Origin: Crambe crambe
Taxonomy: Eukaryota > Porifera > Demospongiae > Poecilosclerida > Crambeidae
Direction: 5' to 3'
Assembly: GCA_963924555.1 (NCBI GenBank)
Contig: OZ004587.1
Coordinates: forward strand, 7,022,075 to 7,086,074
DNA: 64,000 nucleotides
Shown piece by piece: positions 1,341 to 64,000 of the stretch (positions are counted from its first letter, which is position 1; each line of letters opens with the position of its first letter). Position numbers and translations under genes: made by a program. The notes under the pieces are model-generated. The model did not search any database. It was given only the letters and a program-made list of their open reading frames with translations, and was not told where the DNA came from.

Positions 1341-4300
1341 ATGTCTACCAAAGGAGTATTTTGTTTGAAAGACTATGTAGCTGAACGAGCGAGTAAGTAC
1401 AAGGATGAGTTAGCTACTTGCCTAAAACCCATTGATTATGACCTAGCTTTCTTAGTAACAAGAGCAAAAAATGCTCAACTGTTACAACTCGGCACACTTT
1501 TAGAAAAAATAATGGAACTGTCAAATGCTTACCAAAAAATGTCCACAAATAAACCGCTTAAGGAAAAAACTTTGAAACAGTATGAAGAAAGGTTTATATC
1601 TCGTCTCCAAGGTACAAATCTGGAAGATTTGGTTAAAATAGCACAAGGGATTAAATTTATGCATATCGATGAGTTACTATTGAAAATGGTAGCTGCAAAA
1701 CACACTCACGAAAAAGATGACTTTGCTGAAAGTTTAGACAGATACAAGAATGCATTAGCAGCATTATATGAAGATCATCTTAATTTAGATGTACCTTTCT
1801 TATTGGCAAAAGCAAAAAAGGCCGAACTAACAAAATTGGTTGAGCTGTTAGAGAAACTTTTGAAACTAGTTAATATACATTGGGAAATATCCACATTGAA
1901 TAAGACTATGAAGGAATATGAATATAAGTTAATAGCTCATCTTGATGCTATAGATTCAAAGGATTTGGCGAAAAAGACAGGCTGTAATGTGTTTGATGAA
2001 CTACTAATGATGATGGTAGCCATAAAAAATGTTTGTAAGGAAGATGATGTACCTGAGAAATGTAAGAGTGAAATTTACTTGTTAAAAACATATCTCATGA
2101 GATCAGCTAATCTTGAGCTGGCCTTTTCAGAGGCTGAAACTCAGCATGTAGAACTCAGTGAGTTATTAGATATAACAATTAAACTTAAAAAAGTCTGCCT
2201 AGAAGTATCCTCACTGGATAGGTACTTAAAGGATTATAAAGATGAGTTAGTTGCTCACCTCCAAGTTACAGATTTGATTGATTTGGCAACAAAAGCAAGT
2301 GAAATCAGATTTGTAAATATTGATAAGCTGCTGACAGAAATAGCAATTTCAAAACGTACTTGGAAAGGAGAAAGTATGAATAAATATAGAAATAAGTTAG
2401 CTGTTTGTGTCAAAGGTATTGATTTCAATACAACATTAGTCAAAGAGGCTAGAATGACTCAGCCAGCAGAACTCAGTGGTCTATTAGAGAAAATATGGCG
2501 ACTAGCAGATGCCTACCGAAAACTATCCACTGAGCAAGAGTATGGGAAAAAGAAACTGAGAGAATACGAAGATCAGTTTGTAGCTCATCTCAAAGGTATA
2601 GATCTTAATGATTTGGCAGTAAAAGCAAGAGAACTTGGAGATGCAAGTGTTGATAAGGCACTATCAGAAATAGCAGATATAAAGCACACACATGAAATGA
2701 GAGAAGTAACTGAAACCATGACGAAGTTAAGGGAAGAGTTGCCAGCTTATCTCAAAGCTGTAGACTTAGATCTATTTACAAAGGCTAAAAAGGCGGGGCT
2801 AAAACATATAGTAATATTATTAGAGAAAATGATAGAAGTGATAAATGCTTATAAACAAATATCCTCAGAAAACCCACGTAAAGAAAGCACTTTGAAAAAG
2901 TGTGAAGATGAATTGATACTTCATCTTTATAGGACGGACATCGAGCAATTAGCGACAGCAGCAACAAGAATTAAATGTATGAATGCTGATAAGCTGCTAT
3001 ATAAAATGGCAGAAGCTAAACACACTCATGAAGTGGATGATGTAGAAGAAAGTCTGGTTAAGTATAAGGCTGAATTGAAAGATTGTCTCGTTGATTTCGA
3101 TTTTGATCTACAACTCACAGTTACAAAGGCAAAACATGCTCAGCTGGTACAACTCAGTGAGTTGTTAGAGAAAATGATGCAACTTGTGAATGCATATCGA
3201 AAAATGTCCACTAAGAAACCACTTGACCGAAAAACTCTAAAAGAATATGAAGATAATCTAATAGCCCATATCCAAGTTGCAGATTTAGACAATCTGGTGA
3301 TAAAAGCAAAGGGTATTAGATTTATGAATGTTGATGAGCTTCTATCAAGAATACTCCGTACAAAACACTCTTATGAAGACGACTGTGAGAAAATCCTTCC
3401 TTTTGCTATGAAGGCTCTGAAGTGTTATGAAAAAGAATTGATAGCTAATATTATTGAGAATGCTAGCTTCCTGCAGAGTTTAGTTCAGGATGCACACACA
3501 ACTAGGCTCATCCCTGAAAAGGTGAAGATCATCTTATCTTCAACCTGCAGCAGTGTGCCACCTTCACTAATATGCAGGTATCTAATCCTACATGTGTACA
3601 GGAGGATAAATGATCATGATTCCTTTGATATTTGGCTAAGTTTATTGTCTAAGTGTGAAAGAGTTGACGGTGTACTAGGCCAAGTGAAACTGTATTATGA
3701 GAGAAAAGCCTCACTTGATACTAATAGAGTTAATGGTCTTACTGCTGAGGAGAAAACAGCAAGTCATTTTGAAGATTTTTGCTTTAAAGATGAACACGTT
3801 TCGAATTTGACAGACATTTTGGCAGCTCACTCCAGCTATTGGAGACAAATTGCTATATCTCTTGGTTTACCTCACAACGAGATAAGTAGCATTGAGTCAA
3901 TGATGCATGTGTACAAAGTCATTGGCTGTTTAAATGAAGTATTGCACATATGGGTGATGCACAAGTATGACTATGCTAAACCTCCTACACTGAATAATCT
4001 TAGAAATGCATTGTGCAGTGAAATCGTTGGGCTTGGCGTGGAAGCGACAATTATTGAGGAAAAGCTAATTAATAGGGGCATTGTATCATTAGGGTGTAGA
4101 AGTTCAGTCCAGAGAGTACTCTCAGTGGAAGACGAGGAAGTCTTTAAAATTCTTGGCCAATCTCAAGATACCACAGTCTTTGAGGATAAACAAGCTTTAT
4201 TGTTTGAAGTAAAAGTGAGTTCTAGTTTGGAGGATTCTCTTGCTTATCAGTGGTACAAAGATGGGGAGAAACTTGATGATAGCATGCGAGATTGTAAGTG

Positions 4301-7300
4301 CTATGGTGCCAAAGAAAGTATCATCAGTATTTTTATTGATATTCCAACAGTAGAAGGCTCTTATACATGCGAGATCCAGCAAGGAGCTGGTGTTACTGTT
4401 TCAGAGCCAATAGTATTGACTATGGAGACTCCATTGGATCAGTACAGAGAAAAGCTTGAAGATTTTTATACAGCAAAGCCTGAAGTCCCTGAGGATACTT
4501 GGCCTCCAGTAAGTATTGACACGTATATCAACTTGGCTCTAATTAAACAGCAAGGCATTGATAATGCTGGAGAATATGCTCGCTGCACTATTCGAGGAGA
4601 TGCTGATGATGTCTTTAAGGATAAAGAGAAAATTGAGTATGAGAGTGTTTTTGATAGGTTGGGTAGTGGGGCACGTCTTTTGATTGAAGGTCGTCCAGGT
4701 AGTGGAAAGACCACCCTAGTCCACAAGGTCAGCAAAGATTGGGCTAAAGATAGTTTGAAGTTTGATCAAGTCAGACTCTTGTTTTTAGTCCATCTCCGTG
4801 GATTTCTTAGTGATCCCAACATCAAACTGCACAATATTCTTGAATGCTATTATAACAGTGAAACCAGTCCAGCATTAAAGGACATTTTGAAGTATGCAGA
4901 TAAACACAATGGTTTGGGGCTTTGCTTTATCCTTGATGGATTAGATGAATACTTACCCAAGAAAAAAGATACATTTATCCATAAGCTCATCAAAAGATTA
5001 GAGCTTCCCAAAGCTGTTGTCATAGTAGCCTCTCGTCCTGTTGCTGCAGCGGATTTTAGGCCTATAGCAACAAGGCAAATAGAGGTCCTTGGATTTCTAA
5101 AAGAACAGATATCTGAGTATATAAAGGAGTATAACTTTTCAGATGAATCAAAATGTTCTGAATTACTCAAGTACCTTGATCACCATCCTAATGTGCATCA
5201 CATGTGTTATTTGCCCATTCATGCTGCCATGGTGTGTTTTCTCTGTCAAATTGGTAGAAGCCTTCCTGAAACAGAAACTGGTATATACAAAGAATTCACT
5301 ATATGTTTTTCTCTGCGTACATTACGTAAATTGAATGAAGAAGAAGATATTTACATAGACTCTATTCAAGCCTTACCATCTTCTGAGAGGGAGTCTTATT
5401 TGAAGATTTGCAAACTTGCCTTTGAAACCACTGTATCATCAAAACAAGTCATGAATGAAAAAGAGGTCAAAAATTATTTTGACGTCCATAGTAACAGAGA
5501 TTATCTTGGACTTATCAATGTTGATAAAGTAGCTTTGAAACATGGCTTTCAAAAATTATACACATTCCTTCATCTTACTTTTCAAGAGTTTCTAGCAGCA
5601 TGTCATATCTCTAACCTTGAAGAAGATGAGCAAACTAAACTTATCAACGAGTATGGTAATGCCAAGCAGATGCAAGTAGTTTGGAAGTTTTATTGCGGGT
5701 TAGTTAAATTTGGTAATCACATTAAATTTAACAGTTTACTTGATAAAACACAATATGGAATGCTGTACAGAGTCCAGTGTTCCTTTGAGTCTCAACAACC
5801 CAACACGTGTGATAGCATAATAGAGGATGGTAGTCTCTCTTTCAAGGACAATTTCTTTACTCCTTCGGACTTCACTGCCATTGCTTTTGCTATCTCCCAT
5901 GCAGCTCACATCAGTAAACTTGTATTCGATGAATGCACTTTAAGACAAGAAGGAATAGATATCCTTGAGGAGAAGGCTGGAGACAAGCTATCATTAGTAA
6001 CTAGTTTGTGCTTTCATGGTCATAATTGTGTTCCTGAACAATTAAAATTTGTGAATAAATTGATACACATTTTACCTTCCTTGGAAATCTTGGACATTAC
6101 TAACACTCAGCTTGGAGAAGAAGCAGTAAGAGCTCTAACTAGTGATCTGACTCATTCCAATCTTCAAGTGCTTAAAATTGATGTCGCAGAGAATAATCCA
6201 CTTTATTTTTCAGATAACCTTCCACAAACTTTGATAGAGTCTTTCATGTCCAAGTGCAGCAATTTTATCAATGTGTGCTTTCCTGACTATTCCAAGAAAA
6301 ATCTATCTGCTCTGCTGAGTCTTCCGAATTATCTTTGCTCTGTTGACAACTTATCTGATATAAATATGAGTTTTCATCTTCTCCACTCGGTGGAAGTTAA
6401 AATCCTTTCTGATGATCTCAGAATGAGCTCTGTTTGCAGTAGACTTAGCCTTATCAACTGTGGCATCACTGATGAAGGAGCTAAGACTCTCTCTGGTGGT
6501 ATCAAATGCAGCAAGATTGAAATTCTTGAGCTTAATCTTAATCTCGTTAGTAATGAAGGAGCACTGGCTCTTTCTCACAGTATCAAATCATGCCTCAGTC
6601 TCCATACTCTAAATCTGAGCTGCAATCTTATTGATGATGATGGAGCATTGGCCATAACTGCTGGCATACCACGAACTGTCTTCAAAGATTTCAAACTCTT
6701 TTTATGGAACAATAAGATCACTAAGTGTGGTGCTGATGCCTTGCTTAAAATCAAAAGTAATGTTATTCTTGACTCGCTTGATATTGAAAGTAGAGATATA
6801 GGAGATCTTGGAGCAGTTGCTGTGTCTTCATACATAAAAAATTACCAGGAAGAAATACAAACTTCTATTGATACATTGGAACAAGATTTCATGAGCTTAC
6901 ACCAACTTAACTTATCTGGCAATTCTATTAATAATGAGGGTGTGACAAAAATCGCTGATTCACTGAGAAACTGCACAAGCCTGACTTCACTCGACTTATC
7001 AAGCAACTCATTTGGTGTCAATGGTGTACAAGCACTCACAGATGCTCTGAAAAGCTGCACAGGCATTGCTTCACTGAATTTAGCATGCAATTCAATGGAT
7101 GATGACAGTGTGATAATACTTTCTGACAGTTCTTTGAAAAATTTCAAAAACTTGGCATTCCTCAATCTTTCAAGCAATTCAATTGGTTCTAATGGTGCTA
7201 AAGCACTTGCTTATGCTCTGAAAAACTGCACACACCTAACTTCGCTCAACTTATCCAGCAATTTGATGGGTGATGTTGGTGTGGTGGAACTTGCTGATAA

Positions 7301-8774
7301 TCCTTTGAGAAATAGCATGTATTTAACATCACTTGATCTCTCCAGGAATTCCATTGGTTCTTATGGTACCGAAGCACTTGCTGGTGCTCTGAATAGTTGC
7401 ACATGCTTAAAGTCACTAGATTTATCTAGCAATTCTATCGGAGACGATGGTACTAAAGCACTTGCTGGTGCTCTGAAAAGTCATACAAATCTGCTTTCTC
7501 TAAATATCAGCAAAAATAATATCGGTAGAAGTTCATCAAGTGCTCTTGCTGATATCATTAAGAATTGCTCTAAAATGCATACTCTTAAAATTGGCCACAA
7601 TGATACTGGTGATGCTGGCATAAAAACACTTTCTAAACATTTGAAGAAGTGTTCAGACTTACACACGCTCAGCTTAGGGCAAACTTACATTGGCCAAAAT
7701 GGCACGAAATCTCTTGCTAAAGCTCTTAAAAATTGTACAACATTATGTACAATTGATATTCATGACGCTTGTATATGTGGGGATGGTGTGAAATCCATTG
7801 CTTCTGTGTTGAAATCTTGTGGTAACCTGCATACTCTTGACATTGCTAATAATGGGAAGGACAGTACTCTGGCTCTAAGCGATGCTATTAAGTCTTGTGG
7901 TAGCCTCTGCAAACTCAATGTTTCTGGTAACAACCTTGGAAGAGACGGTTCACAGGCTCTCACCAGTGCTATTTTACACTGCTCTAACTTGCATTTTCTT
8001 GACATCAGCCATAATTGTATCGGTAGGGATGGTGCAAAATCTCTTGCTAGTGTTTTTAAGCACTGCACTAATCTACACACCCTTGATATCAGCCACAATC
8101 AAATTGGAAAGGATGGTATGAACACTCTCGCTGTTACGCTCAAGCTCTGCAGTCAACTACGATCTCTTAATGTCAGTTACAATGAAATTGGTGCAGAAGG
8201 TGCCAAGGCACTTGCTGATGCTCTTATTGGTTGTTGTAGTAACCTTAACACACTCAATATTGGCCATAATGACATTGGTAACACTGGTACACAGTCTCTT
8301 GCTGATGCCATAAAGCACTGCAGTAACCTGCATACACTAGATATTTCCAGTAACAAAATCAGTCGTGATGGTGCCCGGGCTCTTGGTGCAGCTATTGGAT
8401 GCTTCAGTCAATTGCATACTCTCGTCATTAATAATAATGCTCTTGAGTATTACATTAGTACAATATGTCGTGCTCTGAAGTACTGCAGTAATCTTCATTC
8501 ATTGGATATTTCTCATAATTCAATCAGTAGAGATGGCGTGGAGGATCTAACTGATGTCATGAGGTGTTGCAGTAAACTGCATCATCTTAATATCAGCCAC
8601 AATGCTATTGAAAAAAATGATGCTAAGGCCATTGCTGACGTGATTAAATTCTGTACAAGCCTCACTACTCTGGACTTTGGCTACAATCCTATTGGTATTT
8701 CTGGTGTTGACGCTCTTAGGGCCGCCAGTAAGGACTGCAGAAACTTGGACATAAATACTAGACAGACAACTTAG
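1341..8774 (+). CDS. NLR-like receptor: six helical repeats, Death, Ig-like, NACHT, LRRs
   Basis: A single 2477-residue exon. Residues about 18-682 are six copies of a ~110-residue helical repeat (each starts KYKxEL-like and ends KHTHExDD-like). Residues 690-795 form a further helical block, and 815-912 a Death domain (YWRQIAISLGL core). Residues 945-1029 are Ig-like (W971, YTC at 1008-1010). A NACHT NTPase follows, with Walker A GRPGSGKTT at 1117-1125 and Walker B CFILDGLDE at 1195-1203. About 27 ribonuclease-inhibitor-type LRRs of ~28 residues fill 1580-2470. Family knowledge: NACHT-LRR proteins are cytosolic sensors that oligomerise and signal through death-fold domains. The ATG at 1341 is the first in frame; an acceptor AG at 1322-1323 shows that an upstream exon exists, probably 5' UTR, though the frame is open back to it. 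The Ig-like insertion and the long repeat array are unusual for NLRs. Confidence 0.93.
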   Translation: MSTKGVFCLKDYVAERASKYKDELATCLKPIDYDLAFLVTRAKNAQLLQLGTLLEKIMELSNAYQKMSTNKPLKEKTLKQYEERFISRLQGTNLEDLVKIAQGIKFMHIDELLLKMVAAKHTHEKDDFAESLDRYKNALAALYEDHLNLDVPFLLAKAKKAELTKLVELLEKLLKLVNIHWEISTLNKTMKEYEYKLIAHLDAIDSKDLAKKTGCNVFDELLMMMVAIKNVCKEDDVPEKCKSEIYLLKTYLMRSANLELAFSEAETQHVELSELLDITIKLKKVCLEVSSLDRYLKDYKDELVAHLQVTDLIDLATKASEIRFVNIDKLLTEIAISKRTWKGESMNKYRNKLAVCVKGIDFNTTLVKEARMTQPAELSGLLEKIWRLADAYRKLSTEQEYGKKKLREYEDQFVAHLKGIDLNDLAVKARELGDASVDKALSEIADIKHTHEMREVTETMTKLREELPAYLKAVDLDLFTKAKKAGLKHIVILLEKMIEVINAYKQISSENPRKESTLKKCEDELILHLYRTDIEQLATAATRIKCMNADKLLYKMAEAKHTHEVDDVEESLVKYKAELKDCLVDFDFDLQLTVTKAKHAQLVQLSELLEKMMQLVNAYRKMSTKKPLDRKTLKEYEDNLIAHIQVADLDNLVIKAKGIRFMNVDELLSRILRTKHSYEDDCEKILPFAMKALKCYEKELIANIIENASFLQSLVQDAHTTRLIPEKVKIILSSTCSSVPPSLICRYLILHVYRRINDHDSFDIWLSLLSKCERVDGVLGQVKLYYERKASLDTNRVNGLTAEEKTASHFEDFCFKDEHVSNLTDILAAHSSYWRQIAISLGLPHNEISSIESMMHVYKVIGCLNEVLHIWVMHKYDYAKPPTLNNLRNALCSEIVGLGVEATIIEEKLINRGIVSLGCRSSVQRVLSVEDEEVFKILGQSQDTTVFEDKQALLFEVKVSSSLEDSLAYQWYKDGEKLDDSMRDCKCYGAKESIISIFIDIPTVEGSYTCEIQQGAGVTVSEPIVLTMETPLDQYREKLEDFYTAKPEVPEDTWPPVSIDTYINLALIKQQGIDNAGEYARCTIRGDADDVFKDKEKIEYESVFDRLGSGARLLIEGRPGSGKTTLVHKVSKDWAKDSLKFDQVRLLFLVHLRGFLSDPNIKLHNILECYYNSETSPALKDILKYADKHNGLGLCFILDGLDEYLPKKKDTFIHKLIKRLELPKAVVIVASRPVAAADFRPIATRQIEVLGFLKEQISEYIKEYNFSDESKCSELLKYLDHHPNVHHMCYLPIHAAMVCFLCQIGRSLPETETGIYKEFTICFSLRTLRKLNEEEDIYIDSIQALPSSERESYLKICKLAFETTVSSKQVMNEKEVKNYFDVHSNRDYLGLINVDKVALKHGFQKLYTFLHLTFQEFLAACHISNLEEDEQTKLINEYGNAKQMQVVWKFYCGLVKFGNHIKFNSLLDKTQYGMLYRVQCSFESQQPNTCDSIIEDGSLSFKDNFFTPSDFTAIAFAISHAAHISKLVFDECTLRQEGIDILEEKAGDKLSLVTSLCFHGHNCVPEQLKFVNKLIHILPSLEILDITNTQLGEEAVRALTSDLTHSNLQVLKIDVAENNPLYFSDNLPQTLIESFMSKCSNFINVCFPDYSKKNLSALLSLPNYLCSVDNLSDINMSFHLLHSVEVKILSDDLRMSSVCSRLSLINCGITDEGAKTLSGGIKCSKIEILELNLNLVSNEGALALSHSIKSCLSLHTLNLSCNLIDDDGALAITAGIPRTVFKDFKLFLWNNKITKCGADALLKIKSNVILDSLDIESRDIGDLGAVAVSSYIKNYQEEIQTSIDTLEQDFMSLHQLNLSGNSINNEGVTKIADSLRNCTSLTSLDLSSNSFGVNGVQALTDALKSCTGIASLNLACNSMDDDSVIILSDSSLKNFKNLAFLNLSSNSIGSNGAKALAYALKNCTHLTSLNLSSNLMGDVGVVELADNPLRNSMYLTSLDLSRNSIGSYGTEALAGALNSCTCLKSLDLSSNSIGDDGTKALAGALKSHTNLLSLNISKNNIGRSSSSALADIIKNCSKMHTLKIGHNDTGDAGIKTLSKHLKKCSDLHTLSLGQTYIGQNGTKSLAKALKNCTTLCTIDIHDACICGDGVKSIASVLKSCGNLHTLDIANNGKDSTLALSDAIKSCGSLCKLNVSGNNLGRDGSQALTSAILHCSNLHFLDISHNCIGRDGAKSLASVFKHCTNLHTLDISHNQIGKDGMNTLAVTLKLCSQLRSLNVSYNEIGAEGAKALADALIGCCSNLNTLNIGHNDIGNTGTQSLADAIKHCSNLHTLDISSNKISRDGARALGAAIGCFSQLHTLVINNNALEYYISTICRALKYCSNLHSLDISHNSISRDGVEDLTDVMRCCSKLHHLNISHNAIEKNDAKAIADVIKFCTSLTTLDFGYNPIGISGVDALRAASKDCRNLDINTRQTT
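1392..3386 (+). repeat. Six tandem ~330-bp coding repeats in the NLR N-terminus
   Basis: Units begin near 1392, 1737, 2058, 2376, 2719 and 3055. Each encodes the same order of landmarks: a YKxELxxxL helix, AKxAxLxxLxxLLEKxxxLxNAYxKxS, KxYExxLIAHLxxxDLxDLAxKA, xxxxxDxLLxxMAxxKHTHExDD. Copies are clearly divergent, so the array is not a recent expansion. Units 1 and 6 are the most similar by eye. I do not recognise this as a named domain. Confidence 0.85.
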
Positions 8775-37893: not shown

Positions 37894-40555
37894 AAGTACC
37901 AACAATATCATCTTCGCGAGTGGAGTCGTTTGATTGGTGGGTAGGGCTCCTCAAAGAAAGAACTCTGAGTCCTCTCCCAGACTGCCCCCTTGGCCTGCAT
38001 GCTCCCCCTCCTACAGCGCCAGTCCCCCACCTCTCCCTAATCACCACACCCCTTCTACTTTGGAGGAACTAACTGTGAGTAAAAAATGTTGGGAAAAATA
38101 TTTTATACAAGTATGCTCCCACGTAAAAAAGGTAAACTTCTTTATAAAGGTTGGACTATCTCCACACCAAATCTCAGTCCCAAGATCACAAGATCACAGT
38201 AATCATTCATAATAAGAATCACAGTATTAATATTTAAAAAGATACTGGTTATTGCTCTATCTTCTTCCCACCAAGAGATCACTCTGACTACTGCACTCCC
38301 ATTGACAGGTGTGTCCTGTGCAGGTCCACCTTCAGATGCATGACAGAGGCAAGGACTCCAACACAGAAATAGGGACGATGGGACCTGATCCCATTGGTCC
38401 TAAGTTGATGATTGGACCTGGTCCAATTGGTCCCAAGTGGACAAAGGGACCTGGTCCAATTGGTCCCAAGTTGACGATGGGACCTGGTCTCATTGGTCCC
38501 AAGTTGACGAAGGGACCTGGTCCCATTGGTCCCAAGTTGACGTGGATACTCTTATCTATTGAAGTGGATACTCTTATCTATTGCAATATAAAGCGGATGA
38601 TCACTTTATTATTGTTTTAATTTACTGGTATCACCTTAATGATGATTCTTATTATGGAAGAATACAGTGGAATCTCTGAATAATGGATATGCTTAAAACC
38701 TTTCATCCTCTGTAGAGAGGTTTCATTTGTATAAATTGTTAGTAGCTATCAAATACTGTAACTTTAGCTATACTGTGTAGATAACTCAATCTGTTTGTAC
38801 TCACTGGAGCACTCCCATTGGCAGGTGTGTCCTGTGCAGGTGCACCTTCACTCATAATGAGGCTGGCAAAGACTACACGGGAACAATGGGTGTGGTCTCT
38901 TTCTTCCTTACTGTTGATAGGCTTGGACTTTTTTTAATTATAGTTATCATAACAATAAGTTCAAGACTGAATTACCAAATGGATTGGATCTATGGACATG
39001 TAGCTATTTAGCTAGCTGATTAATCCTTGATTTATAGCTAGCTACTCTGTTTTTATCATGTGGATAATATAACTGAAAGATTCAATCACCTTCATTGCAT
39101 GACAATCGATGAGACTGTGACTATGAGCCTTAGGACGTGAGGTCATCACAGGGGAGGAGTGCAGTCGAGAGGATTTCGTGCCAGCAATATCGTCATCGTG
39201 AGTGGAATTGGGCAGGGCTTGATTTGGCACTATTAGAAGGGGTATGGTGATTAGGAAGAGGTGGGGGGCTAGCACTGTAGGAGGGGGGGCAGCCTGGGAG
39301 GGGACTTGGAGTTCTTCCTTTGAGGAGATTTTTTAGAAAGGTTGAGGACATAGTATAAATGTCCACTTGGAGTGATCTCTTGGTGGGAGACAGAAGCAGC
39401 TGGAAGATAGAGCAATAACCAGTATCTTTTTAATGAGTATTTAATACTGCGATTCTTATTATGAAGGAATTGTATCAATGGTAGGAAATTATCTTCATGA
39501 TTAGCTACTGTGACCTTGGGACTGAGATTTGGTGTGGAGATAGCTAGTCCAACCTTCATAGAATATATTTGACTTTTTACCTTGGAGGATACCTTGGAGG
39601 ATGGAGGATACTTATTCAAACATGCTGCTTCCCTCACATAAACATTGGTCTAAAGCTGAGTTATATAGGGTTTGTATAAAAAAACTGTTTTTCCCCACAT
39701 CTTTTACTCACAGTTAGTTCCTCTGGCTACTGCACTCCCATTGACAGGTGTGTCAGGGGCAAGGATTCCAGCACAGAAATAGTGGGTGCAGTCTCCAAAA
39801 ATTAATATCTTCTCTTCTATACTGCTGACTTTAGGCATGGACTTTTTATGATCTGCAAATCAAAATTTGCATACATCAATATGCACATTATCATCAAGGA
39901 TGGACCACACCATTAAATAAATGTCCATGTCACACCCTATAGGGGACTCGGAGCTTGGGCTTCCCAAAATGGCTTCTTTTTACATTTACCTTATTGGTCA
40001 AATTACTAATCAACCCATTTTTTGCTATCTGAATATTGATTACCTAAAAGTGCCTTTAAGTTCAGGCTATGATTTTGGTATCAAAAGATAGCCCATTGAA
40101 AGCCGATTTATTTTAAAGCAGGTGTCCGAAAAAAAATCAATAATCAGATAAACGAATTTTCTAGGTCAAAGTTGGAAGAAAGGAAGTTCTATCTTTCCCC
40201 TATCTGTGTCTCAATTTATAAGCTTCAAATACCATAACTGTGTTAAACCAGTAGTTGATATTGATCACTTACTCCAATAATTATTGTTAATTTATGTGCC
40301 TGTGACGGATTTCATAAAAAGATCACATCATATCCTGTCCTTCATTATTATTTTGATTTTAATTTGATATCTTCACATGGCTCTAAGGACAATGGAGAGT
40401 AATTACGTAATACACAGGACATGCCCCTCACAATCAATGAAGAGTAAGTACGCATGCGTAGAATGAGATTCATAAGGCGCCAAATTTGAAAAACAAACAA
40501 ACCAAAAAAAAAAGCATCAATTATCATAACTCTGCTTTATAGCTAGATATGGGAA
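37894..40555. other. Intergenic unit between TRIM copies 2 and 3
   Basis: Repeated at 61337-64000. It holds an inverted duplication (about 37975-38330 against 39225-39560), a 33-bp minisatellite (38379-38541) and three diverged copies of a CACTCCCATTGACAGGTGTG block (near 38297, 38811 and 39737). Short Pro-rich open stretches occur on both strands, some ending at a GTGAGT donor-like site (near 38071). From about 39890 it is the 3' flank of copy 3. No complete gene is recognised. Confidence 0.5.
38379..38541 (+). repeat. 33-bp minisatellite, five units
   Basis: Units of the type GGGACCTGGTCCAATTGGTC plus CCAAGTTGACGAA, period 33. Because 33 is divisible by 3 and each unit lacks stops, both strands stay open (GPGPIGPKLTK on +, LGPIGPGPFVN on -). 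An equal-length copy lies at 61813-61975. Confidence 0.95.
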
Positions 40556-43500
40556 TTAAAAGATTACAAGTCTATTATTATTACAATCACAGACATACAA
40601 GAAACCTTCATTATCAATGCAGATTCCCCATGGGTTCTTCAGGTAACCTTCTTTGGCACCACGTTGTCCAAATGAAGTAACATATTCCCCCTCAGTGGTG
40701 AATATCGATATGTTGTTGTTACTATAATCAGTTACATACACATACTGACCAGCCACACATACACCACGTGGATTACTCAGCTTATTCACACCATTCTCAT
40801 CACTTTCGAATGAATGCAGGAATTCACCACCTTTACTGAGGACTTGAATACAACTGTGACTAGTGGCACCAACATACAGTTTGCCATGTCCATCAGATGA
40901 TACGCGATTGAAATAACCTCTCTCTTCTCTTATCTTCCTGACTAGATTCAGTTCTGTGGTGTATACTTCTAGTTTAGGGTTATATTGTCCGGATACCATA
41001 ACTTCACTTCCAACCACAGCCACACCACTACAACATCCATGTTCAGTTTGCTTCTGCATGACTTTTTTCATGTTTTTATCAAACTTGTAAACATTTTTGC
41101 CACACCATTCATCGAAATAGATGTTATCTTCATTATCGACAGCTACACTGGAGGGATTTTTAAACTTATGATCAGATCGTTTGATGCTTCTTAACTTTTT
41201 CCCGTCCTTGTCCAACACCACAACATCTCCAAGTAACTCTGCCACGATCATCTCTGCCTTTGAGTTAAAGGCTATACCGGATGGATGGTTCAGTCCAGAA
41301 ATGATCTTGACAGGCTTGCCCAGCTTACTTGGATGAATGGAGATAAACACAGGGAAGGGACTACCAGCTACTTCCTGACCATTCACAGTGACAGTTAGTT
41401 CATGATGTCCACGAGTGGTGGGTGTGTATGAAATACAATATTCATTGTCTTCTCTTCGATCAACATGACACTTAACGATGGTCCCATTCACAAGCAATTT
41501 CAAGTGGCAATCGACAGCACACTCTCGTTTAGTACGTTTTCCATTAGTCAGTTTAGGGATAAGGGAGAATCCACACTCTTTGCTGACTTCAGCATTTTTC
41601 ATTTCTTGACTACTTATGGTACATTTTGTAGGATCAAAATTATATACAGTTATCATAGCATTGGTCTTCAACAGCTGCTTCAGGTCGTTGGCACAATTCA
41701 CCTCCACCCCTATGTCCGCTACTGGCTCGAGATTTTTCCTTTCCTTGCAATGTTCTTTGATCTCTTTCTCTATGTGACTCTTGATCTCAGCATACTTACA
41801 CATAATCTCATCGTTAGAAGAATATTTGACAAACTGTTCAATATATTCGATCACACTTTGGATAACTGCACAAGAAGTGGACACACTCTTTTCTTGGCCA
41901 GAGAGACGCTCCAACTTCTCCTTCACTTTCAATGCAGCCTCTTTTAACAGTTCTTTCCGATGGTTTTCGATTATCTTCTGAAGTTCATCAAAGGAGCCAT
42001 TGATGTCATTGGCCATAGATTCCCCCTGAGCCTCTATCTCACATTTGGTGGATTTTATCTCCTCAACGGTACATGATATATCGATCTTAACTTCCTTGAG
42101 GGTGTCCAACTGCTTGATCAGTTTCTTCTTCATCTCGGGAGTGGATTTCTTGACAAATTTATGGTTGTGACCAGAATGATCCTCGATGGTGCAGTCGCGA
42201 CAAATGAGACAGTTACAATCGAAGCAGTAAATCTTCATCGCTTCATCATGTTCTTTGCAGACTTGAAGGGGTGATTCTTCCATGATGATCTCTTTGACTC
42301 CTTCTTTCAACTCATCAAGAGAAACAATCTTGTGCCCAGCAAAAACCTTTATTCTGTGATGTTGCTTCACACACTCGTCACAGATGAACTGGGTACACTG
42401 TCGACAGAAAGCTTTGGCTCTATCCCCGGAACACAGTTCACACTTGGCTTCCACCTTGCCGTGAGCTCGCTCCAGCTTGGAGTGCACTGATTTCATGCGA
42501 TTGACAAAGAAAGCTGTTGGAAGCTCGTCCACATTGCCTTGGGGGAGAGTAGTATCTTTACGACACTCGGGGCAAGAGAATGGCTTGTTAAGGCCAGTCT
42601 TCAGGGTCAGCCTGTGGATGCACTGCTTGCAGTAGTAATGGAGACAAGGAAGGACCTTGGGCTCGGTGTAGTTATCGTGACAGATAGCACACGTGATCTC
42701 CTTCTCAATATCTTCCAAACTTTCCTCAAATTCGTCCTTTCGTTCAGCAAAATCTGCATGATATTATGAAATTTTGTTCTAAATATGCGTATATATGCAC
42801 AAGGGGGTAATAAGTAATGGAATCCACCTCAGTATAACATGATCGTTGACAACGCCACTAACTTATCCTTATATTTACCCAATTCTTCTTTGATATAATC
42901 CTTCTGACTAAATCTAAAAGGACAGGCACTGGGTTGAGTGGGAATAGAGGCTACTGCATCCCCTAGGGATTCGAACAAAGGTTGCACTATTGAAGGGGAG
43001 GGGTCACTAGTTATAGGTGATGGTGGTGTGGGTGCAACTATTTCCTCAGAAAGATTAGAAGGGGAGGGGCCACTAGGTAAACAGGATGAGGAGGGCATTA
43101 CCATCGTAGTTGCAGCAGAAACTTAATGACATTATTTTAACATGAAAAATTTCATGATTTGCGCATGCATCATGGCAAATCATACAAACACTCACAATAC
43201 TAATTTTATGTATCAAAGAACACTCTGACTGTTGCTTTGGTAAATGAAGTGCTAATCCTCAGCTCACATCTGCTTGTATTACTGATATTAGTTGCTCCAC
43301 TGGCTAAAAGTGTAATTGTCAGCATAATCGTGTGTGTGATGTTGATATTTATATACTGAGCAGGAGATCATTGATCAGTTGGAGGTATTAAACAATAAAC
43401 AAACTACATTTCATTCTTAATCATCTATGTTGCATTCCATAACTAGCACATTACATAATATAAATATGAGTAGGCAAACATGGTAGTAAACACTGGAAAG

Positions 43501-46500
43501 TATGTATCGTCTACTTTGAGGCTGAAGTTGGAGCGTTCTAATTGCTACTGGCTGCAGAGTTGATGTAACAGAGCCTATAGCTATAAATCTGCCTTCTTTC
43601 TGGAATAGAGCCTTCACCCTTGCACATGCACTGAGGGTAAATTAGTTAGACATCTTGACCAATGGGAGGGTCATGGGCTCTATCATTTATAGTAAAGCTC
43701 GGCTATGTTCTAATTAGATACCTTGATCAACAGGATCGACAGTATTTAAAATCCTTGGTCTCTTAGTCCAACCCCCTTCTTCCTGTGCTCCTGCCAAAGA
43801 AATAACAAAATCGTAATTCTTTTGAGTGGAATTTGAATGAGCAAATAGGCCTGAGTGCAAGTTTGGGAGCCACTGCTAACCTTTAAAACAGCAGCAACAA
43901 CAACATCAGATGATTGTTGAATATTTTACTTGCTTGCTTGTCAAATTAATGTTGCACATAGCCCTAGTACCATAGGCTCTTTATTTTACTTTTAGGGGTG
44001 GCCAGGTTTTAGCTATGATCAAAGACACTCACTCATATTGCCATCATCTGAAATGGGAGGTTCAGGTTTAGGTGAAGAAGTATCCTTGTGAGATTGTGTA
44101 CTTTCAAAATCGAGAAGGTAAGTCCCACATTTGAGTAGCTGCACTCCAATGTTTAACAGTTTTCTTTCTTGCTCGCGATTTAATGGAAAAACTTCATGTC
44201 CAAGAGGATATTTAAACTTGAACTCGTAACAACCATCTTCTTCAGCATAAAAATTTAAGGTTAAACCCACTATACTTTTCAAGTCGTGCTCAAAGGTTTC
44301 CACTGAAGTAATCGGACAATCAACTCTAACAAATAAGGAAGAGTAATCTCCTATAACTGCACCAAAGTATGGTGGTGCTGGTGATAATTGTGATTGTGAG
44401 GTTGCACTTGGTAAGTTATAATCAGTTGCTGATAGGTCAAATGCAAGATGAAACTCATAAGTTTTACAGTAAAGTGATTGTACTCCAATGTCAAGCAGTT
44501 GTCTTTCTTGTTTATAACTCAGTGGAAACACTTCTGGTCCACATTCACGAGGATATTTGAATTCATACAGACCATTCTTTTCCTCATGAAAGTTAAGAAT
44601 AGTTAAACCTGATACATTTGATAAGTTCTTCAAGAGACTTTCCATTGAATTCGAAGCTATAGGACGATTAACTCTCACAAATAAAGAGAAAGCATCCATA
44701 GTGTTAGGATAGTATGATGATGCTGGTGACAATGGTGATTGCAGTGGTGGCGATGGATCAACAGTTGATGGCAGTGGTGGTGCAGGTAGTTTTTGTAAAT
44801 GTGCTAATGATGATATTTTCCCCATTGATGGTGAAATGATATCTATGGAATTGTGACATGATTAATTCTATGACATGGTAAATTTCATTAGAAGAAGAAA
44901 AAATGCTATTGGAATGAATATATACATCTGGAAATTTTACATACCTTTTAATTTAGAGTAGAATATTTTTAAAACCCCCACTCCTTTTAGTTGACCTATT
45001 TGTTTCTCATTCAGAGGAAATATTTCATCTAACTCATGAAAAGTGAAGAAAATGAGAGTGATAGATCCAGGTTCCCATCTTCGTAGATATACAGATACCC
45101 CAAGCATTTCTGATAACTGAGGTTCTAGCTCAAAAACTTCTTCTGCTGGAACATTAAAAATTTTATCAGTTACAATGCCGATCTCTGTTTTAACTTGCAT
45201 AGAGGGACTGCTTGTGTTAATAGGTACTTCACAAAGTCTGCGTTTACAATAACATTTTAATCTTGACTCATATTTGGTCAATCTCTCTTTGTCATCACTT
45301 ATGCCAAAGTCTTTAATAACACTCTTCAAAATTCTATAACTGAAGAAAGAACAACGCTTAAATGCTTTTGAAAGTAACTCATCAACCATACAATCAGATT
45401 CATTTATTCCGGGTATTTTGAGAATGCAGAGCGATGTTCTCAGAGCTGCAATTTTTTTACATTTTCTTGATAACGACGTGATAGTTTGAACTACCAGACT
45501 AAGAAATTCATCTTCAATGTTTTTGCTCTCCAATACCAATCTTCCCATGAGCCTTTTCTTTTCTATATCTTCCAAATTCCCAACTTCTAAATAAGGAAAC
45601 TTCTCTTCCATTTCACTGCCACCTAACAAAAACAAAAATAAATAAATAAAATTTTTTTTAAAAAACAACAATAAACAAATAAACAAACAAACAAACAAAA
45701 AAACAAACGAATAAACGAAAAAGGTAATATCAGTGTACAAGTAAACCTACCTTCATCATTTGAAGAAACAGCACTATTTTGAGGGGGATCACATCTTTCT
45801 GGCTCAGAGTTTACATTCTCACAACTAATCATTGCAGTGCTAGTGTTGGAGGTAACTATTATAGGAGAAATATTAATACAGATAATACCTTAGCTCTTTG
45901 GGGAGAGGGGAAGCAATTAGGTTATTCTTATCTTCATGTCAATTAAGGGGGCTCCAACAAGGACTATGCACGCGCAGTTAATAATACATGCACACAACTA
46001 CTTGGGCTGGGGGGGGGGGGGGGGGGGGAGGGGGGGGGGGGGAGAGACTGGTGCTCGAGTGTATCTGCGAGCAATGAACTGAGCGTACAAGATCAGATTA
46101 GCTAGCTAGTTCCATTTCCAGCTATTTTGTGATCGTGATGGCTCTTCACTTCGAAAGTTCTTGAAGAAGGAGGAAAGGGAATGTTTCGATGGAAGCTCAG
46201 TTAAAAGATAGATCGTGAAGTGAAGAGGACCCAGTACACTATCAGCCAAAAAAAAGGGCCCTTGCTGTAGGGTAAAAATGCACAATCTAGTCCCTCAGGA
46301 TAGCGCCCCCTTACACCAGTAAAGGCCTTAACAAATGTTGATGACATAAGAGATATTAATATTATTTTTAATTTAACCCATAATTATAACCTAACTACCG
46401 TATATGAGTTAAAATTTTGGCAGGAGTTTTATTTGGTATTTGTACCAAGGAAGGCTTTTGGCGGACATGGCAGCGCGTTATCGCGTACTTATGCATGCTG

Positions 46501-47465
46501 CTTCCCTCCGGGTTAAGCAATCGGTTGGTCTGGTTTTCAGGAATCTTGCAATAATTATTAAAACATACATATCAGACTTGGATCCACCATCAGTGAAAAC
46601 CAATAGAGACACGTACAACAAGAATCCATCTTGCATGTACCAGAAAAAATGTGGGAGCATAGGTGTTGGAAATGGAATGCTGTAGCACCCCCACTTTTTT
46701 TTACAATGTCCCCTGAGAAAATTACCACACTGGATTATAAGTGCACGAACTATGGTCCTGGGGATCTACTGCTGTGCAGCTCTTAAAGTATAGATAGAGC
46801 TCCTTGCTTAGAAGGAGAAAGACAGTAGGCCTAGAGACAGTAAGCAATGCTGGATATTTGTATTGAGTAGCTATAGTAGCCAGCAGTTTAGCATCCCCAC
46901 TTTCAAACATCCTCCTATGCCTATGAGCTATCTGAAATTATCCTACTGTGCAGCCTTAGCGACTACAGCGATCCACAGCTAGCTAGCTAAATAGATATAG
47001 CCCTGGTATTATATGCTCCTATAATAGTTTACCAAGGCAGCCATGAGTCGATCTTTACTACAGCTATGAGAAATCATAGAAATACCTCAGCAAGTAGCTA
47101 CATGTAATACCTGGTTGAGGACTTGAAGCAGAAGGGTCAGGTACTGGATATTCTTCAGGTGGATATTCTTTATCTAGAATCTCAACAATGTCTTTATATC
47201 TTATGTTCTGACGCAAATGATCGACCAGTTTGTGGTAATTGCGAGGGACAAGTGAAACACATTTCCTTATATCAGTCACTAGCATAGTAGCCTTTTCAGC
47301 ATCTGTCAGATTCGACTTTGGGTCATTAACTTCATCGTAATGTTCTGGTGTGATGAATTTTTGTTGAAAGAGAAAGAGTGCAATATCTTTGTTGTTGGAA
47401 CTGAAAGCAATCTCCAGCTGCTTGATGCACTTGACAATAGTGGAATATTCCTTGGACTCTTCCAT
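40556..47465 (-). CDS. Chimeric CARD - helical block - triple module - TRIM-NHL protein
   Basis: Seven coding exons: 47465-47111, 45855-45751, 45622-44945, 44842-44033, 43790-43722, 43121-42879 and 42753-40556. Every junction is GT-AG and phase 1; total 4458 bases, 1485 residues. Order: CARD-like fold about 10-100; linker to 153; helical block about 160-290 (ends YCKRRLCEVP); three copies of a ~75-residue module with FPLxxxQxxxLxxxGV (about 310-379, then two in 395-630); Ser/Pro-rich linkers to 753; RING C775-C817, two B-boxes, coiled coil, filamin domain and NHL to 1485. The TRIM exon has TTT where paralogs have the start ATG, with an acceptor AG at 42755-42754, so it cannot start like them. 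CARD suggests recruitment to death-fold complexes, and RING suggests ubiquitination. The ATG at 47465 is preceded by an in-frame stop. The gene model rests on splice logic; separate genes remain possible. Confidence 0.75.
44033..45180 (-). repeat. Three protein-level copies of a module in the CARD-TRIM gene
   Basis: Copy 1 is at the end of exon 3 (EIFPLNEKQIGQLKGVGVLK); copies 2 and 3 are in exon 4 (EVFPLSYKQERQLLDIGVQ and EVFPLNREQERKLLNIGVQ, each preceded by SLFVRV and YEFKYP/YEFKFKYP). From memory, the helical block followed by an FPL-Q-L-GV module recurs in sponge and cnidarian multidomain proteins; I know no accepted name. Confidence 0.7.
46009..46040. repeat. Poly(G) tract in the CARD-TRIM first intron
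   Basis: A G homopolymer with a single A interruption, inside the 1.26 kb intron 45856-47110. The rest of that intron shows no coding similarity. Confidence 0.9.
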
Positions 47466-58549: not shown

Positions 58550-60733
58550 TTAAAAGATTACAAGTCTATTATTATGACAATCACAGACATACAAGAAACC
58601 TTCATTATCAATGCAGATTCCCCATGGGTGATTCAGGTAACATTCTTTAGCACCACGTTGTCCAAATGAAGTAACATATTCCATTTCAGTGGTGAATATC
58701 GATATGTTGTTGTTACTATAATCAGTTACATACACATACTGACCAGCCACACATACACCACGTGGAACACTCAGCTTATTCACACCATTCTCATCACTTC
58801 CAAATGAATGCAGGAATTCACCACCTTTACTGAGGACTTGAATACGACCGTGATCAGTGGCACCAACATACAGTTTGCCATGTCCATCAGATGATACGCG
58901 ATTGAAATAACCTCTGTCTTCTCTTATCTTCCTGACTAGATTCAGTTCTGTGGTGTATACTTCTAGTTTAGGGTTATATTGTCCAGATACCATGACTTCA
59001 CTTCCAACCACAGCCACACCACTACAACATCCATGTCCAGTTTGCTTCTGCATGACTTTTTTCATGTTTTTATCAAACTTGTAAACATTTTTGCCATTCC
59101 ATTCATCGAAATAAATGTTATCTTCATTATCGACAGCTACGCTGGAAAGACCTTTAAACTTATGATCAGATCGTTTGATGCTTCTTAACTTTTTCCCGTT
59201 CCTGTCCAACACCACCACATCTCCAGAATTCTCCGCCACAATCATCTCTCCCTTTGAGTTAAAGGCTATACCGGATGGATGGTTCAGTCCAGGGATGATC
59301 TTGACAGGCTTGCCCAGCTTACTTGGATGAATGGAGACAAACACAGGGAAGGGACTACCAGCTACTTCCTGACCATTCACAGTGACAGTTAGTTCATGAC
59401 GTCCACGAGTGGTGGGTGTGTATGAAATACGATATTCATTGTCTTCTCTTCGATCAACATGACACTTAACGATGGTCCCATTCACAAGCAACTTCAAATG
59501 GCAGTCGACAGCACACTCTCGTTTAGTGCGTTTTCCATTAGTCAGTTTAGGGATAAGGGAGAATCCACACTCTTTGCTGACTTCAGCACTTTTCATTCCT
59601 TCACCACTTATGGTACATTTTGTAGGATCAACACAAACAGTTATCTTAGCATTGGTCTTCAACAACTGCTTGAGGTTGTTGGCACAGTTCACCTCCACCC
59701 TTGTGTCCACTTCCTCCACTAGCTCAAGATTTTTCCTTTTCTTGATCTCTTTCTCTATGCGACTCTTGATCTCAGCATGCATGCACATAATCTCATCGTT
59801 AGAAGAATGTTTGATAAACTGTTCAGTATATTTGATCACACTTTGGACAACTGCACGAGAAGTGGACACACTCTTTTCTTGGCTAGAGAGACGCTCCAAC
59901 TTCTCTGTCACTTTCAATGCAGCCTCTTTCAACAGTTCTTTCCGATGGTTTTCGATTATCTTCCGAAGTTCATCAAAGGAGCCATTGATGTCATTAGCCA
60001 TAGATTCCCACTGAGCCTCTATGTCACATTTGGTGGATTTTATCTCCTCAACGGCACATGACATATCGATCTTAACTTCCTTGAGGATGTCCAACTGCTT
60101 GATCAGTTTCTTCTTCATCTCAGGAGCAGATTTCATTACAAATTCGTACCTGTGACCTAAATGGTCCTTGATGGTGCAGTCATGACAGATGAGACAGTTA
60201 CAATCAAAGCAGTAAATCCTCATCGCTTCACCATGTTCTTTACACATTTGAAGGGGTGGTTCTTCCTTGATGATTTCGTTAGCTCCTTCTTTCAATTCAT
60301 CAATCCTGTGCTCAGCAAACATCTTCATTCTGCGATGAGATTCGATACACTTCTCACAGACTAACTGGGCACACTGTCGACAGAAACCTTCAGCCTTGTC
60401 CACAGAACACAGTTCACACTTGGCTTCCACCTTGCCGTGAGCTCGCTCCAGCTTGGAGTGCACTGATTTCATGCGATTGATAAAGAAAGCTGTTGGAAGC
60501 TCGTCCACATTGCCTTGGGGGAGAGTAGTATCTTTACGACACTCGGGGCAAGAGAATGGCTTGTCAAGGCCAGTCCTCAGGGTCAGCTTGTGGATGCACT
60601 GCTTGCAGTAGTAATGGAGACAAGGAAGGACCTTGGGCTCGGTGTAGTGATCATGACAGATAGCACACGTGATCTCCCTCTCAACATCTTCCAAACTTTC
60701 CTCAAATTCGTCCTTTCCTTCAGCCATCGCCAT
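58550..60733 (-). CDS. TRIM-NHL protein, array copy 5
   Basis: Two nearby ATGs are possible (60733, giving MAMAEGK, or 60727, matching the paralogs' MAEGK); the frame is open further upstream but without an ATG. About 727 residues with C3HC4 RING, two B-boxes, coiled coil, filamin domain and NHL repeats, all ligands intact. It differs from copies 2 and 4 by scattered substitutions (for example CLICHDC in B-box 2, AEHRID after B-box 1, EMEYVTSFGQ in NHL). A 5' UTR donor near 60946, NRF1-like ACGCATGCGCAT at 61025-61036 and GC box at 61049-61057 are present. Confidence 0.94.
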   Translation of the reverse strand: MAMAEGKDEFEESLEDVEREITCAICHDHYTEPKVLPCLHYYCKQCIHKLTLRTGLDKPFSCPECRKDTTLPQGNVDELPTAFFINRMKSVHSKLERAHGKVEAKCELCSVDKAEGFCRQCAQLVCEKCIESHRRMKMFAEHRIDELKEGANEIIKEEPPLQMCKEHGEAMRIYCFDCNCLICHDCTIKDHLGHRYEFVMKSAPEMKKKLIKQLDILKEVKIDMSCAVEEIKSTKCDIEAQWESMANDINGSFDELRKIIENHRKELLKEAALKVTEKLERLSSQEKSVSTSRAVVQSVIKYTEQFIKHSSNDEIMCMHAEIKSRIEKEIKKRKNLELVEEVDTRVEVNCANNLKQLLKTNAKITVCVDPTKCTISGEGMKSAEVSKECGFSLIPKLTNGKRTKRECAVDCHLKLLVNGTIVKCHVDRREDNEYRISYTPTTRGRHELTVTVNGQEVAGSPFPVFVSIHPSKLGKPVKIIPGLNHPSGIAFNSKGEMIVAENSGDVVVLDRNGKKLRSIKRSDHKFKGLSSVAVDNEDNIYFDEWNGKNVYKFDKNMKKVMQKQTGHGCCSGVAVVGSEVMVSGQYNPKLEVYTTELNLVRKIREDRGYFNRVSSDGHGKLYVGATDHGRIQVLSKGGEFLHSFGSDENGVNKLSVPRGVCVAGQYVYVTDYSNNNISIFTTEMEYVTSFGQRGAKECYLNHPWGICIDNEGFLYVCDCHNNRLVIF

Positions 60734-63700
60734 CAAATTAGATAACAATGAAAACAGCTGATTTAAACCATGGATAAGAAAAAAATGGGGAGAGGGTAAA
60801 TTGATGATACTTTGAGCAAGAAATCTCTTCCTTTATACATCTGAGAGAAGCTATTAACTAGCTACCACTACTCCGCTTAGACAAATAAACATAAGCAAGA
60901 CCCTCCAGCTATCCCTCCAAAGATCCTATATACAAGTCCGCCACTTACCTCTATTAAATTGACACGGAGTCGGTTCGGCCACAACAACCTTAAAAGATGC
61001 ACCCCTTATAAGGAGTATGCTAGTACGCATGCGCATATGTTCAATGATGGGCGGGGCTTATTTTATTTCTTTCGTTTTCGTTTGCTTCTTGTTTTTGTTG
61101 TTGTGCTTTTTGTGTAGAGCAGAAAATGGTTTGCTGATAACAGGTATAAAATAATGAAGAAAAAAATAACTTTCATTTATCAAGAAAATTATCTCAAGTC
61201 ATGATTCAATACGTCCCAAGGAACTGCCCTTTTTAGCAGGAGAACTGTCACACTGTCCCCCCTTAGACCTCCCAATGAGACTGTGACTATGAGCCTTAGG
61301 ACGTGAGGTCATTACAGGGGAGCGAGATCTCGACATAAGTACCAACAATATCATCTTCGCGAGTGGAGTCGTTTGATTGGTGGGTAGGGCTCCTCAAAGA
61401 AAGAACTCTTGAGTCCCCTCCCAGACTGCCCCCTCGGCCTGCACGCTCCCCCTCCTACAGCGCCAGTCCCCCACCTCTCCCTAATCACCACACCCCTTCT
61501 ACTTTGGAGGAACTAACTGTGAGTAAAAAATGTTGGGAAAAATATTTTATACAAGTATGCTCCCACGTAAAAAAGGTAAACTTCTTATAAAGGTTGGACT
61601 ATCTCCACACCAAATCTCAGTCCCAAGATCACAAGATCACAGTAATCATTCATAATAAGAATCACAGTATTAATATTAAAAAAGATACTGGTTATTGCTC
61701 TATCTTCTTCCCACCAAGAGATCACTCTGACTACTGCACTCCTGTGTCCTGTGCAGGTCCACCTTCAGATGCATGACAGAGGCAAGGACTCCAACACAGA
61801 AATAAGGACGATGGGACCTGATCCCATTGGTCCTAAGTTGATGATTGGACCTGGTCCAATTGGTCCCAAGTAGACAAAGGGACCTGGTCCAATTGGTCCC
61901 AAGTTGACGATGGGACCTGGTCTTATTGGTCCCAAGTTGACGAAGGGACCTGGTCCCATTGGTCCCAAGTTGACGTGGATACTCTTATCTATTGAAGTGG
62001 ATACTCTTATCTATTGCAATATAAAGCGGATGATCACTTTATTGTTGTTTTAATTTACTGGTATCACCTTAATGATGATTCTTATTATGGAAGAATACAG
62101 TGGAATCTCTGAATAATGGATATGCTTAAAACCTTTCATCCTCTGTAGAGAGGTTTCATTTGTATAAATTGTTAGTAGCTATCAAATACTGTAACTTTAG
62201 CTATACTGTGTAGATAACTCAATCTGTTTGTACTCACTGGAGCACTCCCATTGGCAGGTGTGTCCTGTGCAGGTGCACCTTCACTCATGATGAGGCTGGC
62301 AAAGACTCCTACACGGGAACAATGGGTGTGGTCTCTTTCTTCCTTACTGTTGATAGGCTTGGACTTTTTTTAATTATTGTTATCATAACAATAAGTTCAA
62401 GACTGAATTACCAAATGGATTGGATCTATGGATATGTAGCTATTTAGCTAGCTGATTAATCCTTGATTTATAGCTAGCTACTCTGTTTTTATCATGTGGA
62501 TAATATAACTGAAAGATTCAATCACCTTCATTGCATGACAATCGATGAGACTGTGACTATGAGCCTTAGGACGTGAGGTCATCACAGGGGAGGAGTGCAG
62601 TCGAGAGGATTTCGTGCCAGCAATATCGTCATCGTGAGTGGAATTGGGCAGGGCTTGATTTGGCACTATTAGAAGGGGTATGGTGATTAGGAAGAGGTGG
62701 GGGGGCTAGCACTGTAGGAGGGGGGCAGCCAGGGAGGGGACTCGGAGTTCTTCCTTTGAGGAGATTTTTCAGAACGGTTGAGGACATAGTATAAATGTCC
62801 ACTTGGAGTGATCTCTTGGTGGGAGACAGAAGCAGCTGGAAGATAGAGCAATAACCAGTATCTTTTTAATGAGTATTTAATACTGTGATTCTTATTATGA
62901 AGGAATTGTATCAATGGTAGGAAATTATCTTCATGATTAGCTACTGTGACCTTGGGACTGAGATTTGGCGTGGAAATAGCTAGTCCAACCTTCATAGAAT
63001 ACATTTGACTTTTTACCTTGGAGGATACCTTGGAGGATGGAGGATACTTATTCAAATATGCTGCTTCCCTCACGTAAACATTGGTCTAAAGCTGAGTTAT
63101 ATAGGGTTTGTATAAAAAAACTGTTTTTCCCCACATCTTTTACTCACAGTTAGTTCCTCTGGCTACTGCACTCCCATTGACAGGTGTGTCAGGGGCAAAG
63201 ATTCCAACACAGAAATAGTGGGTGCAGTCTCCAAAATATCTTCATAGATCCTCTCTTCTATACTGCTGACTTTAGGCATGGATTTTTTATGATCTGCAAA
63301 TCAAAATTTGCATACATCAATATGCACATTATCATCAAGGGTGGACCACACCATTAAATAAATGTTCATGTCACACCCTATAGGGGAACTTGGGCTTCCC
63401 AAAATGGCTTCTTTTTACATTTACCTTATTGGTCAAATTACTAATCAACCCATTTTTTGCTATCTGAATATTGATTACCTAAAAGTGCCTTTAAGTTCAG
63501 GCTATGATTTTGGTATCAAAAGATAGCCCATTGAAAGCTGATTCATTTTAAAGCAGGTGTCCGAAAAAATCAATAATCAAGAATTTTCTAGGTCAAAGTT
63601 GGAAGACAGGAAGTAGTTCTGTCTTTCCCCTATCCGTGTCTCAATTTATAGAAGTTAAGCTTCAAATACCACTGCATTAAACCAGATGCCAGAAAAAGTG

Positions 63701-64000
63701 TCCAGTAGTTGATATTGATCACTTACTCCAATAATTATTGTCAATTTATGTGCCTGTGACGGATTTCATAAAAAGATCACATCATATCCTGTCCTTCATT
63801 ATTATTTTGATTTTAATTTGATATCTTCACATGGCTCTAAGGACAATGGAGAGTAATTACGTAATACACAGTACATGCCCCTTCACAATCAATGGAGAGT
63901 AAGTACGCATGCGTAAAATGAGATTCATAAGGCGCCAAGTTTGAAAAACAAACAAACCAAAAAAAGCAACGAATTCACAACTCTGCTTTATAGCTAGATA
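60734..64000. repeat. Upstream unit of TRIM copy 5, ending in the next gene's 3' flank
   Basis: Collinear with 37279-40550, including the 45-residue frame (61336-61199), the inverted duplication (about 61425-61750 against 62660-62990), the minisatellite (61813-61975) and, from about 63330, the 3' flank that precedes TRIM stop codons elsewhere. The window ends a few bases before the expected stop, so a further TRIM-NHL gene probably starts just beyond the right edge. Confidence 0.85.
61813..61975 (+). repeat. 33-bp minisatellite, five units (second copy)
   Basis: Same length and unit count as 38379-38541 with a few substitutions, one of which introduces a stop on the + strand (AAGTAGACAAAG near 61868). 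The minus strand stays open. This argues against + strand coding. Confidence 0.95.

Follow-up and report, generated by a model that had tools for sequence, protein, structure and literature searches.

A row of open exons in Crambe crambe raises the question of whether a CARD-like head and a TRIM-NHL ligase have been joined into one gene, or whether two incomplete genes merely lie cut end to cut end. The window, meaning the whole stretch of 64,000 nucleotides that was analysed, corresponds to C10:7022075-7086074, and the genome searched comprised 143 Mb in 119 contigs. The initial annotation had described a seven-exon gene with phase 1 at all six junctions, and the rebuilt chain bears this out: the exons (the first five of Table 1, then 43121-42879 and 42753-40556) join in one frame of 1,485 codons, with a GT/AG at each join, no frameshift and no stop other than the last codon. 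The phase-1 joins that can be checked in relatives, namely the CARD donor, the NLR exon and the repeat-exon donor, are native. The evidence supports a row of chimeric make-up, its exons drawn from different families of immune genes, although the description of a course from CARD to TRIM had overlooked the TRADD-N-like exons and the NLR fragment. The locus is probably a rearrangement junction in a fast-changing immune-gene cluster, where a CARD/TRADD-N/NLR gene lacking its 3' end adjoins a TRIM copy lacking its 5' end. Both genes are truncated, no homology spans the DNA between them, and each part is ordinary in itself. The open phase-1 chain speaks for another reading, a working CARD-(TRADD-N)-TRIM-NHL gene in which 42753 would be spliced to the truncated NLR exon or straight to a phase-1 exon further upstream; on the evidence set out below, such a gene is rather unlikely.

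Table 1. Features of the locus, in positions of the window.
Feature	Position	Strand	Remark
First exon, weakly CARD-like, ATG start	47111..47465	-	Exon family with 97 matches in the genome
Short linker exon	45751..45855	-	Common to TRADD-N-gene loci on C8/C9/C19/C5
Exon with helical N-terminal half and TRADD-N-like C-terminal part	44945..45622	-	Homology and profile links
Repeat exon (a further repeat domain, present twice); native donor GTGAGT	44033..44842	-	
23-codon exon, weakly supported	43722..43790	-	Matched in L037 alone, at 43% over 23 aa
NLR main exon, truncated to its 5' part (Ser/Pro linker, beginning of the helical region)	42844..43121	-	
Proposed fusion donor: exon end 42879, GT 42878-42877	42877..42879	-	Within conserved NLR codons
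Junction zone without NLR or TRIM homology; holds the proposed acceptor AG 42755-42754	42749..42843	-	
TRIM-NHL frame: RING, two B-boxes, coiled coil, filamin, NHL; without ATG	40556..42763	-	

The CARD identity of the first exon is weak. A weak likeness to a CARD, as proposed for the N-terminus, holds, although the match to the Pfam profile (PF00619; E 0.14) stays below the cut-off, with 12.7 bits against 23.9. CARD is matched by 18 of 27 members of the exon family at E up to 1, the best at 3.1e-5, but 19 of the 27 match the unrelated FumaraseC_C (best 0.0014). Comparison of the family by hhalign with eight over-cut-off CARDs of the same genome gave a probability of 44.6% (E 2.3e-4, 38 columns), and a search of the family against solved structures returned no CARD at E up to 1.

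The exon at 45622-44945 belongs to a large family as well, with 149 matches in the genome. The exon itself does not match the TRADD-N profile (PF20694); five of 27 relatives match it below the cut-off (best 0.0032), and C17:4462829-4463485, which resembles the exon at E 5.2e-11, contains a TRADD-N match above the cut-off (27.4 against 23.7 bits). An alignment of these exons against solved structures found only RNA helicases, in the C-terminal part (best E 0.0031), and these hits were taken as chance. The short exon, the TRADD-N-like exon and the repeat exon form a unit that recurs at ten other loci on C5, C8, C9, C15 and C19, a count in which, at several loci, one or other piece is not in the DNA examined. 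Moreover, a CARD exon is followed on the same strand within 6 kb by a TRADD-N exon at eight further loci (66 of 97 CARD and 43 of 149 TRADD-N matches examined), and because the two exons pair so often, a gene head of CARD then TRADD-N is ordinary in this genome. The repeat-exon donor is GTGAGT or GTAAGT in all six relatives; since the native GTGAGT of the window copy could join 42753 in phase, a working fusion would not need any cryptic donor. At five of the ten closest TRADD-N loci in the DNA examined (L041-L044 and L047), the TRADD-N exon is preceded by an exon that we take, by eye and from its motifs, to be death-domain-like. Pfam was silent on it in the five copies scanned, and a search of the window at E up to 0.5 turned up no counterpart. 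A C8 locus (6.30-6.32 Mb) carries one ahead of its TRADD-N unit (L080 4814-5101; again by eye, with Pfam silent), and downstream of the unit lies a repeated frame with hydrophobic stretches, perhaps a membrane-bound end (L081 2391-4400).

A similar arrangement is on record elsewhere among sponges. In Amphimedon, Kaur et al. (2021, PMC8195603) describe 357 proteins in which TRADD-N comes after one, two or three death-like domains and before a variable C-terminus, and the head of the window gene fits this theme. The swapping of C-termini behind death-like and TRADD-N units in that source also lends plausibility to a working fusion.

The sixth exon leads away from the TRIM and into a different gene family. 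It matches loci L016, L013 and L021 at 58-63% over 94-96 residues. Of the 29 other CARD loci examined, these three are the ones where an NLR exon matching at 63% or more stands behind the CARD exon within the DNA covered; L019 and L031 gave weaker matches. L016 is a two-exon gene: behind the CARD exon, its second exon stays open over 1,800 codons or more and encodes NACHT and LRRs. The proposed donor at 42879 lies within codons GKYKDKLVALST, which all three relatives translate through unbroken; at the donor position L016 has the same GTAAAT, L021 has GTGAAA and L013 is without a GT. Such a donor counts against a working fusion, as it is NLR coding sequence. The NLR exon of the window loses homology at about 42844, and its frame meets a TGA at 42831-42829. 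Its acceptor reads TTAAG behind a shortened T-tract, against CGCAG, TGCAG or CACAG in the relatives. No NACHT or LRR was found between the main-exon stop (42831) and the TRIM, nor any remnant of these domains from the upstream gene elsewhere in the window, save for the gene at 1341-8774 and a 24-aa match at 17-88. Because the donor codons are read through in relatives and L016 runs on to NACHT and LRR, the upstream gene is, by homology, what is left at the front of an NLR gene after loss of the NACHT and LRRs. The gene at 1341-8774 is a single-exon NLR of 2,477 codons with a NACHT, many LRRs and sub-threshold Death and Ig matches, whose N-terminus carries a helical unit repeated about five times.

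The DNA between the two genes is the least familiar part of the locus. From about 42843 to 42749 it is homologous to neither the NLR nor the TRIM family, and the 103 bp across the junction have no second match genome-wide in a search that skips simple repeats. These results lend no support to the claim that 42879/42753 is an evolved splice junction: its donor falls in NLR codons that relatives read through, and homology breaks off to either side of the 103-bp stretch. The novel join region offers 17 GT and 27 AG, which yield 39 phase-compatible open pairs, so that an open GT/AG join is expected here by chance. The fusion acceptor has pyrimidines at 10 of 20 positions, against 11-13 in ten related TRADD-N/NLR-exon acceptors; in the native acceptors of eight TRIM copies the number is 17. 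In this comparison, the entry for the NLR fragment was one base short. Its weakness argues against a working fusion, although the native donors (GTATT) and acceptors of the upstream exon family are also weak, and splice-site strength is not decisive. In favour of a fused transcript, no AATAAA or ATTAAA occurs on the minus strand from 43985 to 42353, and a transcript of the upstream gene would therefore tend to run on from the CARD side into the TRIM exon. The window locus is the only one where a CARD exon was found upstream of a TRIM on the same strand within 30 kb (35 TRIM and 48 CARD matches examined), a singularity that again speaks against a working fusion; the other 27 TRIM matches are on C5, C11, C14 and C16, and among the CARD matches listed these contigs have none but one on C5, megabases away by eye. 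The uniqueness of the junction in the assembly, within a repetitive and segmentally duplicated array, could also mean that two array or cluster members were misjoined. Such an assembly artefact is extremely unlikely; the junction contains no gap (N) in the one assembly examined.

The TRIM-NHL copy downstream, T40556, belongs to a family with at least 62 matches in the genome (61 of 617 candidates scored). It has the complete RING/B-box/filamin/NHL C-terminus ascribed to it, each domain lying above its Pfam cut-off, and the RING and B-box cysteines are intact by eye in the translation, which is what a working fusion would need. The loss of the ATG used by its paralogs is confirmed as well, and extends to the native 5' flank: T40556 has none of the flank common to the in-window copies T35101, T55106 and T58550, which are 93-97% alike there over about 680-1,565 bases. 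A search for this flank upstream of the CARD gene gave no match. The stop-to-stop frame of T40556 starts YHADFAERKDEF and has no Met ahead of the RING, the first in-frame Met lying behind it; with no ATG of its own in front of the RING, the TRIM would fit a fusion that supplied one. The acceptor had been placed at the exact limit of homology to the other copies, which is nearly right, although homology to the closest copies begins at 42748, five bases within the proposed exon. In eight of 13 other copies a native 5'UTR intron acceptor stands 30-40 bases before the ATG, and T40556 lacks it; the acceptor is altered in T58550, while L075, L076, L077 and T29073 fall outside the pattern. In T58550 (window 60700-60790), CATGG stands in place of the native CATAG, and this copy may be spliced differently. 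Since ordinary TRIM copies are also open upstream of their ATG, in frames of 758-761 aa, an open frame through the acceptor region of T40556 is not special. The TRIM might instead be expressed alone, from a new promoter or with an unseen 5' exon that supplies an ATG, while the CARD gene ends by itself. The intact frame and the 5' non-coding exon of native copies would suit such expression, but a TAA closes the frame three codons before the acceptor AG, no ATG precedes the RING and the native 5' exon is missing, making it very unlikely.

The surroundings of this copy are themselves in motion. Window 29073-60748 (C10 7.05-7.126 Mb) holds a tandem TRIM-NHL array of at least 11 full-length copies, apparently mosaic through gene conversion. 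The spacer at 38301-40555 matches 61743-64000 at 95.7%, so the array duplicates in blocks. At 38306-38620, the spacer contains a GPIGPKL-type minisatellite that is open on both strands.

If T40556 served in a fused protein, selection might have left a trace on it. In a codon model of 11 TRIM copies with nine terminal branches tested, the T40556 branch shows no sign of purifying selection: its omega of 1.32, the highest of the nine, stands above the 0.59 estimated for the other branches (p 0.016 without correction), and the sole other branch to differ from background is L088, which has a lower omega. Positive selection on the TRIM is not supported, as 1.32 is not distinguishable from an omega of 1 (p 0.42). 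For the RING part, omega reached the upper bound (p 0.0073 against background), with 89 codons too few to lean on. At otherwise invariant sites T40556 has 15 N to 6 S private changes, where the neutral expectation is near 3:1; the ten other copies together have 179:107, and with L083 at 20:7 and L085 at 25:9, T40556 is not outstanding. The lack of visible purifying selection counts against a working fusion, although an omega above 1 could also follow a fusion. Furthermore, the best partner of T40556 switches along the frame, reaching 100% over 70 codons with L083, a pattern that is read here as gene conversion. Because gene conversion and mosaicism violate the tree model, the omega test is weakened. 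Gene conversion can, in addition, hold a useless TRIM copy open. On the upstream side, the window-branch omega is 0.72 for the CARD exon, 0.81 for the TRADD-N exon, 0.41 for the repeat exon (p 0.003 against 1) and 0.54 for the NLR fragment (p 0.11); most of these branches are probably older than the junction.

The case for a rearrangement junction is carried by the donor in read-through NLR codons, the worn NLR acceptor, the matchless junction DNA and the 39 alternative pairs, together with the missing native TRIM acceptor, the omega of 1.32, the mosaic array and its block duplication. Against it stand the openness of all seven exons, the purifying selection on the repeat exon and the lack of an intervening poly(A) signal; moreover, the TRIM breakpoint all but coincides with the start codon, a position that selection for a fusion would account for as well. 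On the rearrangement reading, the upstream side is a CARD-like/TRADD-N-like gene that reaches ~280 bases into an NLR main exon and lacks the rest of it (helical region, NACHT and LRR), and the downstream side is a tandem-array TRIM-NHL copy minus its promoter side, 5'UTR intron and ATG. A breakage and rejoining, at a duplication edge or through a deletion, probably brought the two together, and the TRIM frame was probably held open by gene conversion from array members that are intact. If transcribed and spliced like its relatives, the upstream gene would yield a truncated CARD-TRADD-N protein ending at 42831 without a NACHT-LRR sensor, which could serve at the most as an adaptor or decoy of death-fold/TRADD-N type. 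The TRIM frame would give no full-length product of its own: at best it would lie silent downstream, or yield a protein that starts at an internal Met and lacks the RING. If the cryptic donor were used by chance, a little fused protein might arise, with no sign of selection for the fusion.

A young chimeric gene, in which a CARD-like/TRADD-N-like head and an NLR piece would be spliced in frame to a complete TRIM-NHL ligase, appears doubtful. In a working fusion, NHL and filamin would bind a ligand, and the RING would ubiquitinate the death-fold partners drawn in by CARD/TRADD-N. If true, ligand binding by an NHL propeller would be wired straight to death-fold assembly, and exon shuffling among phase-1 immune exons would be seen in progress. 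A transcript across 42879/42753 would reveal a ubiquitin ligase fused to a death-fold head, a clear new immune gene at birth. If there is no fused transcript, the locus cautions that in such clusters an open chain of exons in matching phase says little for a fusion gene. Either way, the junction shows phase-1 NLR/TRADD-N exons meeting a tandem TRIM-NHL array, which gives open chimeric frames almost free. The initial annotation knew of no described CARD-TRIM-NHL protein, and none was found in the open-licence literature, although TRADD-N fused to TRIM domains has already been published.

Comparison with known systems places each half of the locus on familiar ground. With TRIM-NHL proteins that carry a filamin domain (TRIM2/3/71-like; Subfamily C in PMC3503706), T40556 shares RING, B-boxes, coiled coil, filamin and NHL in one exon, whereas it lacks their start codon and native 5' exon. 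With sponge CARD-NACHT-LRR receptors (NLRC, the class described in PMC12909245; here, for example, the locus L016+L078), the window gene shares the first exon, the first ~280 bases of the main exon and the intron phase; in contrast to them, it has TRADD-N-type exons within the intron and is without NACHT and LRR. The published fusions of TRADD-N to TRIM domains belong to a DEDD2/TRADD-like clade (PMC8195603), as against the CARD/TRADD-N/TRIM-NHL chain of the window. The sponge C-termini named in section 10 of that paper are ankyrin, SH3-LRR, kinase, MATH, SH2, PDZ, caspase, PNPase and HD, TRIM-NHL not being among them. The closest parallel in overall plan is offered by the Amphimedon death-like and TRADD-N proteins (PMC8195603), in which, as in the window gene, an N-terminal death-fold unit is followed by TRADD-N and a variable C-terminus.
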